Shown here piece after piece: positions 1-63,764 of a stretch of 64,000 nt of DNA; positions within the stretch are counted from its first letter, which is position 1; every line of letters begins with the position of its first letter. This DNA is from a virus. Below the pieces are notes generated by a model that had not been told where the DNA came from, searched no databases, and saw nothing but the letters and a program-made list of their open reading frames with translations. Made by a program: the position numbers and the translations under genes. Location: positions 1 to 64,000 of the IMG/VR virus record IMGVR_UViG_3300049811_000692; one strand, 5' to 3'.

Positions 1-359
1 TCCGCCGCCGGCTCGAGCTGACCTCGAACCCAGACCTGCTCGGCTTCGTGGTGCTGTTCAACGAGGCCGGCCAGCCGATCCGCTACGATGCGGTGCGCGG
101 CAAGGTGACCTCGGGGGGCAAGCGGCTCACCGAGCCCGACCGGCTGGTGACGGTGGGCAACGGGAGCGGCGGCACGAACATGGCCGTGCGGCAGGCGCCC
201 TCGGACGAGGGGACCTGGGGGAGCAGCGCGCCCTACATCTACTACTGGACCACGAACGGCGAGTACGTGCAGTGGTCGGGCGCCTACCTCTACTCCGACC
301 GGCCGATCCGCCTGCGCGTGGAGCCCATCGTCATCACCACGGTGACGGAGGGGCGGTGA
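1..359 (+). CDS. hypothetical protein, 5' end outside window
   Basis: The reading frame is open from the first complete codon (position 3) to the TGA at 357-359, so the gene begins left of the window. A GTG at 48 could start translation, but the residues before it (RRLELTSNPDLLGF) read naturally into the rest, so I treat it as internal. The visible part is rich in Gly, Thr and aromatic residues with alternating polar and apolar positions, suggesting a beta-rich fold. No family is recognised. The stop overlaps the ATG of the next gene (ATGA type), so it belongs to the same translationally coupled block. Confidence 0.6.
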   Translation, partial: RRRLELTSNPDLLGFVVLFNEAGQPIRYDAVRGKVTSGGKRLTEPDRLVTVGNGSGGTNMAVRQAPSDEGTWGSSAPYIYYWTTNGEYVQWSGAYLYSDRPIRLRVEPIVITTVTEGR

Positions 360-649
360 TGGATCGCTACCTGCAGGAGGCCTTCGAGGCCTCCTGTCGT
401 GCCGCGTGCTGCCCGCGCGGCTGCGATGCCGACATGCTGCCCTGTGGGGCGGTCGAGAGATATGGGGAGACCGTGAAGCGGGCGATCAAGGCGTTCCTGA
501 TCACCCTGCCGCCGGTCGGGACCGTGAAGGAGGACATGAACCCGTTCCCTCCGGGGATGCGCGAGGTCCGCACCTCGCCCTACGCCATCTCCACCTACTG
601 GAGCCCGACCGTGGTGGCTCAGGCCCTCAACGGCGAGGACGTGTCGTGA
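359..649 (+). CDS. small cysteine-rich hypothetical protein
   Basis: A 96-aa protein starting at the ATG that overlaps the previous stop. The N-terminal third holds a cysteine cluster (CRAACCPRGCDADMLPC) that could bind a metal; the C-terminal part (TSPYAISTYWSPTVVAQAL) shows no known motif. The frame stays open upstream to 272, but the overlap architecture and the alternative coding frame there favour 359. It ends in a TGA overlapping the GTG start of the following gene. Function unknown. Confidence 0.55.
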   Translation: MDRYLQEAFEASCRAACCPRGCDADMLPCGAVERYGETVKRAIKAFLITLPPVGTVKEDMNPFPPGMREVRTSPYAISTYWSPTVVAQALNGEDVS

Positions 650-56330: not shown

Positions 56331-56378
<48 letters not shown>

Positions 56379-56389
56379 AAATCAAGGCC

Positions 56390-57475
56390 TTACGGGTCGT
56401 CATTTCCGGAGTTCCGTCGCCGGTTCCGTCGCCCTTCCGCCGCCACCCGCGCCTCGGCCGCCCGCTCGAACTGCTCGGGCGTGAAGCGGACGTACCGCCG
56501 GCGCATCTGGGGCGTCTTGTGGCCCCCGTGGCTGCTCAGCCCGATCTCATCCGCCCCCGAATCCGCCAGCTCCGTCAGCCCGGTCGCCCGCAGGTCCCGG
56601 AACTGCAGGTCGTCCGGCACGCCAGCCGCCTTGGCGACCTCCCGGAAGACGTGTCGGAAGTGGTCCTGGCGCCAGGGGCGCTTCGTCGCCTCGCAGATCA
56701 CGACCTGCACGCCCGTCCGGGGCGTCGCAGCGAGCGCGGCGGCGAGGTCGGGGTAGGCGCCGGCCACCAAGGGGATGACCTCGCCCGTCTTGCGGGTCCC
56801 CACCTGGCGCTGGTCGAGCGCGGTCCACGTCAGGCCGATCACGTCGCCCTGGCGCAGGGTCGCCCGCCAGGAGAGCAGCACCGCCAGCGCCATGCTCGGC
56901 CAGCCCATCTCCCGCGCCGCGGCGATCACCGCCTCGATCTGCTCGGCGCTCCAGCGCTGCTTGCGGGAGGCGATGCCCTGAAGCTCCATCCGGGCCCAGG
57001 GGTTGTCCCGCCGGTCCACATGGTCCCGCCGGCCGCCCCAGTTCCACACCCGCCGCGCGTACCGGCAGGCGTAGTGCGCGGTTGCCTTCCCGTGGTCGAG
57101 GCACAGGGCCTCGTACAGCCGATCCGCGTGGCGCGGCTTGAGGGCGCCCGCCGGGAAGCCGCCCAGCGCCACGCCCCCGACCGGCAGGCCGCATAGCAGC
57201 CGGCCCAGCCACAGGTAGTCCTTCTTCGTGGAGGGGGCGAGGCGCCCGAATCGCTCATCCTGCTCGAACAGCGTGAACAGCCAGCGCACCGAGCCCGGTG
57301 CCGGCCCTTGGCCCTTCTGCAGCTCTGCGTTGATCTGCCGCGCCAGCGCCCAGGCGACCGTCTGATCGGCGCCGAGCGCCCGAGGCTTCATCTGGCCCCG
57401 GAGCTGCCGGGGCGGCTCCCAGAACCAGCGGCCCTTCCTCTGGATGGTGTGGGGTGGGCGGTCGGTCTCGCTCAT
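56390..57475 (-). CDS. int: tyrosine recombinase (integrase)
   Basis: A 361-aa leftward protein that inserts and removes the phage at the tRNA-Lys gene. N-terminal arm-binding and core-binding parts are followed by the catalytic domain: Arg208 (WRATLRQGDV), Lys229 (TRKTGEV), the box II segment QFRDLRATG with Arg296, His319 (SHGGHKT) and the nucleophile Tyr328 (RRRYVRF). The usual first His of the HxxR motif is Arg293 here. It lies next to attP and below the excisionase candidate in one leftward operon. Full length. Confidence 0.93.
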   Translation of the reverse strand: MSETDRPPHTIQRKGRWFWEPPRQLRGQMKPRALGADQTVAWALARQINAELQKGQGPAPGSVRWLFTLFEQDERFGRLAPSTKKDYLWLGRLLCGLPVGGVALGGFPAGALKPRHADRLYEALCLDHGKATAHYACRYARRVWNWGGRRDHVDRRDNPWARMELQGIASRKQRWSAEQIEAVIAAAREMGWPSMALAVLLSWRATLRQGDVIGLTWTALDQRQVGTRKTGEVIPLVAGAYPDLAAALAATPRTGVQVVICEATKRPWRQDHFRHVFREVAKAAGVPDDLQFRDLRATGLTELADSGADEIGLSSHGGHKTPQMRRRYVRFTPEQFERAAEARVAAEGRRNRRRNSGNDDP

Positions 57476-57484
57476 CGGTCCCCC

Positions 57485-57730
57485 TCAGCGGAGGCCGAGC
57501 GCCCGATCCAGGAGGCGCTCGGCGCCCTCCACGGTAGCCCCGGGACCATGGGGGGTGTCCAGGGCACGCTCCACTGCCGCCCGGCTCCAGCGCGCCCGGA
57601 GGTCGTCAGGAGACACCCCCCAGAGCGGCATTGGGAGCTGCCCCTCCTGCATGCGCGCATGCAGCTCCTTCGCCGTCACCTGGAGGTGCCGGAGCAGCTG
57701 CGCGCGCGTGAAGGTGCCGGGTGTCTCCAT
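57485..57730 (-). CDS. excisionase-like small HTH protein
   Basis: An 81-aa leftward protein ending 9 bases before the integrase start. The segment FTRAQLLRHLQVTAKELHAR plus the following GQLPMP turn resembles winged-helix proteins of the AlpA/Xis type. Position just upstream of int suggests a recombination directionality factor. ATG 57730 overlaps the stop of the GcrA-like gene. Confidence 0.6.
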   Translation of the reverse strand: METPGTFTRAQLLRHLQVTAKELHARMQEGQLPMPLWGVSPDDLRARWSRAAVERALDTPHGPGATVEGAERLLDRALGLR

Positions 57731-58323
57731 CAGGCCGAGAGCTGGAACACCAGATCGAGCGGCAGGGGCTCGTCGCCGCTGTACCTCATGCCCATGCGCC
57801 GAGGTCGGGGCACGACCCGTTCCGCCTCCCGCGCCAGATCGGCGGCGGCCCGCCAGGACGAGATGGTGTTCGTCTTGGCGTGCTCCGCGCAAAACAGCCG
57901 CCGCGGCGACCCCGTGGGGGCGTCGCAGTACCGCTGGTAGAGCGGGTCGCGCCGCCCCGCCTCGCCCCACAGAGGATGCCGGCAGCAGCCCTCGCCGCGC
58001 GTGGCGATGGCCGTCGGCGCGCGCGGCGGCGGCGAAGCGAGCGGCGGGGGCGCGGTAGGCCCCCGGGCCGCCGGCGCCGTCCGCGCGGGCGCCCTTGTGG
58101 CGGCGTTGGCGCCTTGCTCGCGCCCCTTCCGGCGCAGCGTTCCCCGGATGTGGCCCTTGAACTGCCCGCGGCACGGGAGGCCAAGCCGCCGCGCGCGGCC
58201 GGCCACCGTTCCGGGGGAGATGCCCATCGCCAGACCGATGGTCGTGATCGTGTGCGAGGGATCGTTCCACAGCCTGGCGAAGCGATCGATCATCTCCGCC
58301 GGCCAGGGCTTCGGCGCGCCCAT
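57730..58323 (-). CDS. GcrA-like cell-cycle regulator
   Basis: A 197-aa leftward protein. The N-terminus has the GcrA pattern: WPAEMIDRFARLWND, an HTH (TTIGLAMGISPGTVAGRARR) and LGLP. The C-terminal part keeps the paired-cysteine plan (GCCRHPLWGE, QRYCDAPTG, RRLFCAEHAKT), joined by a Pro/Ala-rich linker. GcrA binds sigma-70-loaded polymerase at methylated GANTC promoters in alphaproteobacteria. The phage copy may redirect host transcription or help transcribe phage promoters with an unusual -10 region. Confidence 0.78.
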   Translation of the reverse strand: MGAPKPWPAEMIDRFARLWNDPSHTITTIGLAMGISPGTVAGRARRLGLPCRGQFKGHIRGTLRRKGREQGANAATRAPARTAPAARGPTAPPPLASPPPRAPTAIATRGEGCCRHPLWGEAGRRDPLYQRYCDAPTGSPRRLFCAEHAKTNTISSWRAAADLAREAERVVPRPRRMGMRYSGDEPLPLDLVFQLSA

Positions 58324-60541: not shown

Positions 60542-61319
60542 CGGGCACCTCCGGCCACGTCACGCCCTCGATCGCCGGCGGGGCATCGCCCACCAGCGCG
60601 ACGTAGGAATCGAAGACGCTCCCGATGTGGACGTCCGACATGACCTGCAGCCACGCAGCGCGCTTTCGGAGCGCCTCCTCGGCCTTCTCCGCCTCACGCA
60701 TCTCCAGGCGGAGCTTCTGGACCATCTCGTGCGGCCGCGGCTCTGCCTTCTCGGCCTCGGGCGCCGCGTCGGCGGCCCCGGCCGGCTCGGGTGCGACGGC
60801 CCGGGCGCGCGGCTTGACGACCTTGGGCTTGCTGGCCTGGGCCGCGCGCGCGATGCCCCCATCGTCCTCCTCGTCCTGTGGCGCGAGGCCCAGGAAGAGC
60901 GCCAGGCCGTAGCGGCGCATGTAGGTCAGGCGCGAGCCGGCCACCTGGGGGTCGGGATCGACCGGCAGCGCGAAGGGCAGCGCCCCGCAGCGCCACTGGC
61001 CGCTCTCGACGTGGGTGAGGCGGGTGACCATCAGGCCGGTGCGCTGGCCGACGATCAGCACGTCCTGCTCGAGCAGCAGGCCCTCCGCGACGAGTGCCGG
61101 CTCGACGGCGGTCAGGTGTGCGGTCAGGTCGGCGTAGCGGTAGGTCCCCTGGGGCGCGCCCGTCTGGTCGTCGATCGAGACGCCGACGGCGCCACGCCGG
61201 ATCGGCTGGAACGCCGCCTTCGCCCGCATGAGGGCGGGGAGCAGCTTCTCCTGCTCGCGGCTCTGGCGCTGCCCGAAGTCAGACAGCGGCAGGGTCATCG
61301 GGAGGAAGGCCTCAGACAT
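60531..61319 (-). CDS. erf: ERF-family single-strand annealing protein
   Basis: A 262-aa leftward protein. The ERF core is clear: LLPALMRAKAAFQPIRRG, YRYADLTAHLTAVEPALVAE, GLLLEQDV, then GSRLTYMRRYGLALFLGL and an acidic DEEDDGG. A Lys/Pro-rich linker leads to a C-terminal helical part. ERF proteins anneal complementary single strands during phage recombination and pair with an exonuclease, here the 61677-62579 product. Confidence 0.88.
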   Translation of the reverse strand: MSEAFLPMTLPLSDFGQRQSREQEKLLPALMRAKAAFQPIRRGAVGVSIDDQTGAPQGTYRYADLTAHLTAVEPALVAEGLLLEQDVLIVGQRTGLMVTRLTHVESGQWRCGALPFALPVDPDPQVAGSRLTYMRRYGLALFLGLAPQDEEDDGGIARAAQASKPKVVKPRARAVAPEPAGAADAAPEAEKAEPRPHEMVQKLRLEMREAEKAEEALRKRAAWLQVMSDVHIGSVFDSYVALVGDAPPAIEGVTWPEVPDAA

Positions 61320-61677
61320 GGCCGTTGCCCCCGAACAGCGGGGCGGTGGCCGTGCCGCGCGGGAGCGGGCGGCTCCGGTCGTTCGGCCGCGCCTTCAGCC
61401 CGAGGGTGGAGGTCGCCCGGTAGTAGATCGAGGCGTGGGAGCGCCCGAGGATGCGGGCGATCTCCTCGATCGGCTTCTCCTCGCCCCACAGCTTGGCGAG
61501 CAGCTCGTCATCCGCAGGCAGGAAGTGCCGGCGGGTGGCGGGCGGGGGCCTGGGGGCGGCGGCCTCGGTCTCGGCGGCGAGGATCTGCAGCGCCATGCGC
61601 AGCCCCTTCGCGACATCGGCGTGGCCGAGCTCCTCGGACGTCTCGGCGGCGAGGCGGATCTTCTCGCTGGCCTGCAT
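61312..61677 (-). CDS. HTH-containing early protein
   Basis: A 121-aa leftward protein between the exonuclease and ERF genes. The segment DDELLAKLWGEEKPIEEIAR, ILGRSHASIYYRATSTLGL has the form of a GcrA/sigma-4-like helix-turn-helix. The N-terminus is an acidic helix. It may regulate the early operon. Confidence 0.55.
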   Translation of the reverse strand: MQASEKIRLAAETSEELGHADVAKGLRMALQILAAETEAAAPRPPPATRRHFLPADDELLAKLWGEEKPIEEIARILGRSHASIYYRATSTLGLKARPNDRSRPLPRGTATAPLFGGNGHV

Positions 61678-62579
61678 CAGGCGGCCTCCTCTGTCGCGGC
61701 CTTCAAGGGCCGCACGGTGATCGCGTTGCTCTTGGAGGCCGTGACTTCGACGCCGTGGCCGTAGGCGCGCTTGATGCCCTCGGGGAGCAGGCCCTTCAGC
61801 TCGCCGTGCGCCTGATCGTAGGCCTCCTTCATGGGGAGCGCCTCGAGGAAGCGCCCGGCTGCATCGGCCCAGGCGTTGCTCAGCGCCATGTCCTGCTCGC
61901 CCTGGCGCACCGGCACGACCTTGATGGTGCGCTTGGCGAGCGCCACAGGCTCGGTGCGCTCGCCCGACTGGACCGAGGCCCAGAACGCCTCCTCGGCGCG
62001 GATCAGGTCGGCGAGCAGGTCGAGATCCTGGCCGACCTCGAACACCTCGAAGCGCAGCGTCCCGAAGAGGACGCACAGGTAGGCGACCTCGGCCTTGGCG
62101 CAGTGCATCTCGTGCTGGAGCTGCGCGGCGCCGTACTTGTCCACGACCTCCTGGTCCTTGGTCCAGGCGTTGACGTGCTTCGCCTGCAGCACTGCGCGGC
62201 GGCCCTTGCCGTCGTCGTCGAGCCAGCCGTCGAGGGTGGCCGCCATCCAGGGGCGCCGGGTGTCGCGCACCCGCTCGCCGCGGCGGGTGACGGTCCAGCC
62301 GTTCTGCTTGGCGCCCCAGGCGAGGATGAAGGCCTCGGTCCAGAGGCCGAGCTGGACGTAGATCAGGTTCGACAGGTCGTCGGGCTCGCGCTCGCCGCGC
62401 TTCACGGCGCGGAGCTTGCCGACCTCCTTGGGGTCGCCCTTGTAGATCACCGTGGCGTCGGAGCCGCCGATGAAGTTCCGCCGAGCGAGGATGTCTTCGG
62501 GCGTCAGGCCGAAGAGGGGGAGCCGCGCGAGCTTGCCGTCATCCGTGAAGCCGAGAGCGCGACAGGTTGCTGGGTCCAT
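61677..62579 (-). CDS. YqaJ-type viral recombinase (exonuclease)
   Basis: A 300-aa leftward protein of the lambda-exonuclease/YqaJ family. Visible motifs: IGGSDATVIYKG, the helix GLWTEAFILAWGAKQNGW, WMAATLDGWLDDDG with the metal-binding Asp, VLQAKHVNAW with the catalytic Gln-x-Lys, and KYGAAQLQHEMHCAKAEVAY. It digests one strand of duplex DNA to supply the ERF protein. ATG 62579 has GAGGTG at correct distance; it is the first gene of the early operon. Confidence 0.85.
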   Translation of the reverse strand: MDPATCRALGFTDDGKLARLPLFGLTPEDILARRNFIGGSDATVIYKGDPKEVGKLRAVKRGEREPDDLSNLIYVQLGLWTEAFILAWGAKQNGWTVTRRGERVRDTRRPWMAATLDGWLDDDGKGRRAVLQAKHVNAWTKDQEVVDKYGAAQLQHEMHCAKAEVAYLCVLFGTLRFEVFEVGQDLDLLADLIRAEEAFWASVQSGERTEPVALAKRTIKVVPVRQGEQDMALSNAWADAAGRFLEALPMKEAYDQAHGELKGLLPEGIKRAYGHGVEVTASKSNAITVRPLKAATEEAA

Positions 62580-62611
62580 CGTGGACACCTCTGTGAGGGG
62601 GTGGCGATGAC

Positions 62612-62643
62612 CGGTGTTTATCACAGCAGAATGTGAGCGCAAC
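62612..62643 (-). promoter_or_regulatory. early leftward promoter with operator copy 6
   Basis: On the minus strand TTGCGC is followed by TCACATTCTGCTGTGA (plus 62621-62636) and then TAAACA, i.e. an operator occupying a 16-base -35/-10 spacer. The 19-base extended site (plus 62619-62637) differs from that at 3476-3494 at one position. It should control the exonuclease-ERF-GcrA-xis-int operon. Confidence 0.65.
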
Positions 62644-62706
62644 CCCATTTCCGAGGGCGGGCGCGAGTTTCCCGCGCGCGCGTTGTGAAGGGTGTTGTGA
62701 TGGAGA

Positions 62707-62739
62707 TTCCTTCCTCTTCTCTCCTCTCCTCTCCTCTCC
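62707..62739 (+). repeat. polypyrimidine tract
   Basis: More than 30 consecutive pyrimidines, mostly CTCCT repeats, starting TTCCTTCC and ending CTCTCC. Uninterrupted in sequence otherwise GC-balanced, it lies immediately beside the phased repeat array; such tracts can form unusual structures or be easily melted. Confidence 0.85.
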
Positions 62740-62740
62740 G

Positions 62741-62824
62741 TCGGTGATCGATCACCGACATGTCGGTGATCCAACACCGACCGCTCGGTGTTCGCTCGGT
62801 GTTCTGTCGGTGCTCAAACACCGA
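62741..62824. repeat. helically phased TCGGTG/CACCGA repeat array
   Basis: TCGGTG begins at 62741, 62763, 62785, 62796 and 62807; CACCGA at 62753, 62775 and 62819. All steps are exactly 11 or 22 bp (one case 44). Three pairs form 18-bp palindromes: TCGGTGATCGATCACCGA at 62741, TCGGTGATCCAACACCGA at 62763 and TCGGTGCTCAAACACCGA at 62807. The gene-free stretch 62580-62896 thus holds promoter, operator, pyrimidine tract, this array and a terminator. It is a multi-site protein-binding region: replication origin, partition site or cooperative operator. Confidence 0.85.
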
Positions 62825-62863
62825 TTTTTTCGCATGATTTGGAGAACAAGCCATTGAAACGAC

Positions 62864-62891
62864 AAAAACCCCGCCGGTTTCCCGGCGGGGG
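62864..62891 (-). terminator. intrinsic terminator of the 62897-63764 operon
   Basis: CCCCGCCGG (62869-62877) and CCGGCGGGG (62882-62890) form a 9-bp stem with a four-base loop; AAAAA at 62864-62868 becomes a U-tract on the minus strand. It shields the repeat array from leftward transcription. Confidence 0.85.
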
Positions 62892-62896
62892 CCTTG

Positions 62897-63070
62897 TCAA
62901 AGCACCAGCGCTCCAATGGCGCCGCTGAGGGTCATCCCCAAAAAAACGGCGCCGGCAGCGAGGGCCAGGAGGGCCATCCACTGCCGAGCCGCCTCGGGCA
63001 CCGCGCCAAGCAACGCGCGGGCCGCGGAGCGCGGCGCCTGAGGAAATCGGGACGCCCGCCACAAGATCAT
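62897..63070 (-). CDS. 57-aa single-span membrane protein
   Basis: A short leftward gene, ATG at 63070 to TGA at 62897. The first 30 residues are basic and amphipathic (MILWRASRFPQAPRSAARAL), followed by one membrane segment (WMALLALAAGAVFLGMTLSG and a short tail). AAAGG lies 10 bases ahead of the start. A terminator follows at once. Unknown role. Confidence 0.55.
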   Translation of the reverse strand: MILWRASRFPQAPRSAARALLGAVPEAARQWMALLALAAGAVFLGMTLSGAIGALVL

Positions 63071-63155
63071 GGGGAGTTGCCTTTCTGTCTTTCGCCCCGG
63101 CCTGGGGCGCAGCGGGCCGGCGCACCTGCGCCGGCAAGCCGACCGACCCAGCGGG

Positions 63156-63764
63156 TCAGTCGGGGAGCTCGATGTCGCCCCACGCTTCGGGGCCTTCTTC
63201 GTGAACCTCGATGCTGTCGCGATCGATGTCGAAGGAGGCCTCGTCGATCTGGCGGCAGACGTTGTGGAGCATCATCTCGAGCAGCTGCTCGGTGAAGGCC
63301 GGATTTGTGCGGATGGCGTCAAGGACGCGACGCTCGGCCTCCTTCTCGGAGAAGGCGCGCACCAGCACGAAGGCTTCCGGCTGGAAGCCATCGTCGGCCA
63401 TCACGCGCACCGTGTAGGGGATGCGAAGGTCGTCCTCGTCATCTTCAGCGCCGGCACCCTCGAACGGGTCCGTGCCGTCGCCCCCGATCCCGTCCTTGCG
63501 GGCGATCGCGGAGATGTCGTGCAGGTGGACCGAGGGGCCGATGAAGCTCTGCATCGAATGCCCCTCGAGCCGAGGGTCGTGCGAGGCGACGTAGTGCAGG
63601 ACCGCCTCGTCCGCGCGCTGGTAGCGCACGACGAGCGGCTGCGGAGACAGCACGCACGCCAGGGCGGCGAGCGTGCCGGCCGGGCAGGCGTTACGGAGGT
63701 AGGACTGGTATGAGCAGCTTCTCCCCGTCGCCGTGACCCGGTCGTAGTAGGTGACCATCAGCAT
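63156..63764 (-). CDS. hypothetical protein
   Basis: A 202-aa leftward protein. A Cys-containing N-terminal part (SCSYQSYLRNACPAG) leads to a central beta-rich region and an acidic C-terminal half (AGAEDDEDDLRIPYTVRVMA, then FVLVRAFSEKEAERRVLDAI). ATG 63764 or 63758. No family recognised. Two GC-rich hairpins without T-tracts (63093-63109 and 63116-63135) lie between its end and the next small gene. Confidence 0.55.
   Translation of the reverse strand: MLMVTYYDRVTATGRSCSYQSYLRNACPAGTLAALACVLSPQPLVVRYQRADEAVLHYVASHDPRLEGHSMQSFIGPSVHLHDISAIARKDGIGGDGTDPFEGAGAEDDEDDLRIPYTVRVMADDGFQPEAFVLVRAFSEKEAERRVLDAIRTNPAFTEQLLEMMLHNVCRQIDEASFDIDRDSIEVHEEGPEAWGDIELPD

Follow-up and report, generated by a model that had tools for sequence, protein, structure and literature searches.

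The replication origin of bacteriophage lambda consists of four 18-bp iterons and an adjoining 38-bp AT-rich segment, 127 bp in total (PMC3349717), at which the O protein carries out both binding and unwinding (PMC7466680). Phage replisome organisers with the N-terminal motif MARxRxxKPxFF (PHROG 16167/1408/2149) are associated with another type of module, in which half-sites spaced by 10-11 and 22 bp, in both orientations, are accompanied by a purine tract of constant polarity, the whole lying within the initiator gene. Here we describe an array in a phage record of 105,428 bases that resembles both. The window, i.e., the whole 64-kb stretch on which a preliminary description had been based, corresponds to bases 1-64000 of this record.

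As in ori-lambda, four 18-bp units with dyad symmetry (here three palindromes and one altered unit) are joined to an AT-rich segment, which measures 45 bp in this phage, array and AT-rich flank together spanning 128 bp. However, ori-lambda is located within gene O whereas the present array is intergenic, the iteron sequence and the initiator family are unlike those of lambda, and the long GGAGAGG-type tract found here is not a named part of ori-lambda. Likeness to the MARxRxxKPxFF modules extends to an encoded initiator of that family, an array with 10-11/22-bp spacing and a same-strand tract of at least 20 nt separated from the array by 1 nt, but here the module lies outside the initiator gene, 9.8 kb away from it, is longer (eight half-sites) and has an AT-rich flank. 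Because the initiator gene itself (72626-73675) contains neither array nor tract, we regard the module as a variant rather than a plain member of this group. Judged by its sequence, the array appears to be an origin of replication whose kind is recognisable and whose location is new.

An intergenic array of phased half-sites

Eight TCGGTG/CACCGA half-sites in an 11/22-bp phase are present within the 84 bp at 62741-62824, as had been described previously. The plus-strand copies of TCGGTG start at 62741, 62763, 62785, 62796, and 62807 (all 8 modulo 11) and the minus-strand copies at 62753, 62775, and 62819 (all 9 modulo 11). One possible reading of the array is a series of four 18-bp units with a pitch of 22 bp, three of them palindromic and the third altered: iteron 1 (62741-62758) is the perfect palindrome TCGGTGATCGATCACCGA, iterons 2 (62763-62780) and 4 (62807-62824) are the palindromes TCGGTGATCCAACACCGA and TCGGTGCTCAAACACCGA, and iteron 3 (62785-62801, plus strand) is composed of two direct half-sites, at 62785 and 62796, that are 11 bp apart and not palindromic. 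The three palindromes and two direct repeats reported earlier were thus all recovered. The conserved half-site is wider than six bases, namely TCGGTG(T/A)TC. The preliminary description had also proposed an exact helical phasing that would place all bound proteins on the same face of the DNA. Copies on the same strand are indeed congruent modulo 11, but neighbouring half-sites on opposite strands are 12 or 10 bp apart, not 11, and with a helical repeat of 10.5 bp their phase shifts by approximately 100 degrees across 66 bp, so that binding to exactly the same face holds only approximately.

The clustering is far beyond chance. Eight copies of any hexamer per 84 bp were never found in 60 control genomes generated by an order-3 Markov model and matched in composition to the phage genome (maximum 7, usually 5), and among all 84-bp segments of the real genome this density is unique to the array, the next highest value (seven) coming from coding repeats. 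When the 105-kb genome was scanned independently of any motif, the combined lag-11 and lag-22 self-match peaked at the array (49/88), by a narrow margin over GC-rich stretches that reach 48. The array occupies a gap bordered by the start of the recombination operon (62579) and by the early-region terminator (62890-62869). The reading frame of the exonuclease gene remains open into part of the array, giving a 66-codon extension; this extension scores -0.42 per codon, which is clearly non-coding, versus +0.60 for the gene itself, which speaks against the array as a coding repeat and agrees with the earlier view that it is free of genes.

Searches with the exact array pattern gave no match in viral contigs and 15 matches in bacterial genomes, a number near that estimated for chance, some of them resembling TetR-type operators. 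BLAST searches of phages and plasmids with the array detected no convincing match; the satellite phage Javan379 carries 11-bp TCGGYG repeats (E 0.07) with no recognised initiator adjoining. No close relatives of the phage were found by its exonuclease, initiator, or terminase, and a search of 385 genomes from one class and 39 from one family, selected via the tRNA sequence of attP, yielded only two distant exonucleases.

Sequences flanking the array

One nucleotide to the left of the array, a purine tract of 33 nt (GGAGAGGAGAGGAGAGG...) occupies 62707-62739 of the minus strand. Its minus-strand sequence is GGAGAGGAGAGGAGAGGAGAGAAGAGGAAGGAA (GGAGAGG type), and the plus strand accordingly contains the pyrimidine run of more than 30 bases that had been noted beside the array. 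It is the longest purine/pyrimidine run of the genome (the next longest has 17 nt), and appears to correspond to the GGAAGG/GGAGAAGG tract found after the in-gene arrays of relatives. On the other side, the segment at 62824-62868 (45 bp, 67% AT) is a candidate unwinding element, being the fifth least stable separate 45-bp stretch in a genome of approximately 71% GC. It is followed on the minus strand by an intrinsic terminator of the leftward early genes (62890-62869), already described as a border of the array, which shields the array from read-through.

A putative promoter of the exonuclease/Erf operon (TTGCGC-16-TAAACA) is located on the minus strand at 62642-62615 and overlaps a CACAT-n4-ATGTG-type palindrome; a sigma-70 promoter scan of 62500-63200 detected no promoter-like site and did not list it. 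Seventeen such palindromes with at most one mismatch are present in the genome (at 3479, 56228, 62622, 70819, 74457, 88446, 95357, 99614, 99862, and 104262, among others), many of them intergenic and some overlapping promoter-like hexamers, and the main regulator of the phage probably uses this palindrome as its operator.

The phage genome and its replication genes

Gene calling and family scans identify the record as a temperate tailed phage, whose first bases recur near the end of the record (127-nt match). Structural genes are found at the left of the genome, and a leftward early region lies beyond the recombination operon. This leftward operon encodes a RecE/YqaJ-like recombination exonuclease (61677-62579, minus strand; its first gene), an HTH protein (61312-61677), an Erf annealing protein, and a DUF2303 protein. 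The integrase gene (56390-57475) adjoins the attP site at about 56334-56378, a tRNA-Lys(CTT)-type 3' end. Exact copies of this tRNA end occur in two genomes of one family (G628 and G555), a hint at the host. A weak match to the alphaproteobacterial cell-cycle regulator GcrA, just under the Pfam cut-off, was observed at 57730-58323 (minus strand). Integrase arm sites and a packaging site were considered as identities of the array and rejected, attP being 6.4 kb away and the large terminase gene being at 96907.

Within the window, as stated in the preliminary description, no replication initiator is encoded near the array. The initiator was invisible to that description because it lies outside the 64 kb: the same record encodes a DnaB helicase (71079-72626) and, overlapping its end, a replisome organiser/initiator of 349 aa (72626-73675). 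This protein matches two PHROG families of replication initiation proteins (phrog_16167, E 1.3e-28; phrog_1408, E 1.8e-24), and its residues 1-110 are common to proteins annotated as 'replisome organizer' or 'replication initiation' in many phages, in several of which the gene adjoins DnaB or DnaC-like genes. Modelled on the relative L111 (pLDDT 91), the N-domain looks like a winged helix. Structural matches of the L111 domain are mostly DNA-binding proteins, with the replication initiator 4pt7 at rank 2, and none in the PDB reaches E 0.001. A scan of the initiator gene detected neither a phased array nor a purine tract, and the intergenic array is the sole half-site-plus-tract module of the genome. 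The GC-skew analysis proposed as a check of origin function displays no switch at the array; it is uninformative here, as the skew mostly follows gene direction.

Several other features of the early region (63-105 kb) were observed. Among its proteins, one has a match (E 3e-14) to the Acb2/Tad1 hairpin domain, of the anti-CBASS/anti-Thoeris sponge type, and others match DUF6117, DUF5983, and DUF3846. A Ro60/TROVE-domain protein is encoded at 93748-95226 (minus strand, record coordinates), and the 632-bp gap upstream of it (95227-95858), which has partly repeated sequence and no match in Rfam, is a possible Y-RNA locus. Moreover, some 25-30 intergenic leaders of approximately 90-100 bp, each directly upstream of a leftward early gene (63765-88400, record coordinates), have a common core with GC-rich inverted repeats (...GGGGACGCGACTGGCCGCC...). 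The core pattern has no match in IMG/VR or Rfam. These leaders are reminiscent of the start-associated sequences described in cluster K mycobacteriophages (PMC3203893), to which they have no known relation.

Modules in the initiator genes of relatives

Two sets of 80 IMG/VR viral loci encoding relatives of the N-domain (160 in total) and 18 isolates were compared. In many of these relatives, half-sites with 10-11/22-bp phasing lie within the initiator gene directly past the N-domain (approximately +310 to +430), their sequences being of several types (ACGCGT, CACTGA, TCGACGA, and CRCCGA). For example, ACGCGT occurs at 317, 328, 338, 349, 359, 370, and 380 of the initiator gene of L095, and CACTGA at 337, 359, 370, 392, 403, and 425 of that of L111. 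A phased run of three hexamers was found at +310..470 in 24/80 and 36/80 loci of sets 1 and 2, versus 0 and 1 loci in the control region +20..180 and 1 and 15 loci in +150..310, the measure being less clean for the second set. In that second set, CRCCGA/TCGGYG half-sites reach 9.1 per kb in +320..+440 versus 2.8 elsewhere, the predominant spacings being 11 and 10 bp, and TCRNCGA-type sites reach 22.2 versus 2.4. The self-match of these genes at lags 11 and 22 is 0.444 and 0.406 in +320..+400, compared with 0.278 and 0.260 in the N-domain part, where no peak at either lag is found.

Purine tracts are a further component of these modules. Tracts of at least 20 nt were detected at +330..480 in 66 of the 160 loci, these 66 amounting to 63 distinct sequences, and over half of the relatives are without one. 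On the coding strand all 68 tracts read as R and none as Y, and just nine runs of this length occur elsewhere in 1.3 Mb. They are 20-65 nt long and directly follow the array, and no equally long run arose when the codons of genes with long tracts were shuffled.

The nearest parallel to the present array is found in Stenotrophomonas phage SOVA965, whose initiator is 34% identical to that of this phage over 106 residues of the N-domain. Its initiator gene has the order GATCACCGA-AC-GATCACCGA-ACAT-TCGGTG-AC-GGAGAAGGAGAAGGAGAAGG, that is, GATCACCGA twice at 11 bp and an inverted TCGGTG at 10 bp, followed by GGAGAAGG repeats, the half-sites running into GGAGAAGGAGAAGG; the minus strand of the window reads GATCACCGACATGTCGGTGATCGATCACCGAC-GGAGAGGAGAGGAGAGG. 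The half-site (GATCACCGA/TCGGTG), its phase, the order of array and tract, and the polarity of the tract are all shared. TCGGTG half-sites (in most cases TCGGTGATC) at an exact 11-bp pitch also occur in the O/DnaD-like initiator gene of metagenomic phage L082, but the six sites there are within the gene, in a single orientation and in two clusters of three, and no purine tract of at least 14 nt is present near the clusters. The half-site sequence differs widely over the initiator family (CTGATTCC, ACGCGT, CACTGA, and TCGACGA), and in-gene arrays of the TCGGTG type are a minority; three exact copies of a TCGGTG-type site were found within the gene in 0/80 loci of the second set.

A limited survey of 3-6 kb on either side of the relatives' initiator genes, where available, revealed no other displaced module, and the stand-alone layout may be rare among them. 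Two metagenomic phage contigs carry TCGGTGNTC at an 11-bp pitch outside recognised genes (L083, 5892-5972; L060, 5351-5388), which are possibly other stand-alone origins. In initiator genes of gamma-proteobacterial phages (L037, 29535-29583; L038, 9239-9282; L053; and others), CTGATTCC iterons with 7/14/21-bp spacing were observed. In Louie and HK639 they come after an upstream 11-bp-periodic stretch and purine tract, and two repeat types may coexist in genes of this kind. An initiator binding such CTGATTCC iterons was rejected for the present phage, as it has no such cluster and CTGATTCC is one of several half-site types.

A probable displaced replication origin and its alternatives

The preliminary description had left open whether the array is an origin, a partition site, or a cooperative operator. 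Comparison with proteins related to the initiator of this phage makes it highly likely, in our view, that the array provides the iterons of the replication origin, which would thus lie in an intergenic gap, displaced by 9.8 kb from the initiator gene. A different protein from the product of 72626-73675, such as a factor of the host or a phage protein that lacks annotation, might bind the same origin, given that the anatomy would fit whatever protein binds and that the half-site is unlike the CTGATTCC iterons that several gamma-proteobacterial phages carry in their initiator genes. However, the agreement in half-site, phase, tract, and polarity with the in-gene module of SOVA965, whose initiator is a relative, argues against such a binder, as does the finding of no other initiator, and we regard it as very improbable.

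A simple operator is disfavoured. The exonuclease/Erf operon is the only thing downstream of the array, and the second gene of this operon, with its weak HTH match and a match to a D5-like regulator, could encode a regulator that binds the array cooperatively. Yet the putative operon promoter is approximately 100 bp from the nearest half-site, so that the sites overlap no promoter, and it has a palindrome of its own belonging to the motif that recurs at intergenic sites throughout the genome. Neither the purine tract, nor the meltable flank, nor the in-gene arrays of relatives would be explained by regulation of this operon, which we therefore judge unlikely as the role of the array. Partition of an extrachromosomal prophage through a parS/parC-like site is likewise disfavoured and seems to us the least probable role. 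RHH-type centromere sites are another known setting of arrays phased at 11 bp, and some genes of this genome carry domains that are presumably associated with plasmids. On the other hand, no ParB domain was detected in the 105-kb genome (PF02195, E 0.1), family scans of most genes found no Par protein, and RHH_1 gave a single, sub-threshold match (74695-74763), which falls in a protein that also matches HTH_26. In addition, the integrase and the tRNA-Lys-type attP point to integration, and a partition site would again account for neither the purine tract nor the arrays within the initiator genes of relatives.

If the array is the phage's origin, the replisome organiser, through its predicted winged-helix N-domain, would bind the phased TCGGTGWTC half-sites as dimers. 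Because no close relative was found and the half-site varies over the family, this recognition is proposed on the basis of the architecture and the SOVA965 match. Such dimers, placed at 11-bp intervals on half-sites in inverted or direct orientation, could build a phased nucleoprotein complex similar to the O-some of lambda, which would open a weak neighbour, either the AT-rich 45-bp stretch on the right, the 33-nt purine tract on the left, or both, after which the phage DnaB helicase would be loaded. With the origin outside its own gene, the initiator would act on a separate site. As most relatives have the module within the gene, we infer that the move was out of the gene.

Implications for phage replication

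We lean towards the view that this phage has a split replicon, with a stand-alone intergenic iteron/tract origin in front of the recombination operon, and that, more widely, 11-bp-phased half-sites plus a tract constitute an origin signature, conserved and apparently not described before, of a large family of phage initiators, in which the half-site sequence changes while phase and tract persist. A narrow literature search in an incomplete library found no account of such a signature. The array and the initiator would offer a concrete, testable origin/initiator pair for a phage without close relatives, and phased half-sites followed by a purine tract, past the initiator N-domain, may serve as a signature for locating the origins of many uncultured phages. 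A displaced origin could also find use in a GC-rich host, as a small origin for plasmids. For the phage itself, displacement would free the evolution of the binding sites from the coding constraint of the initiator linker.
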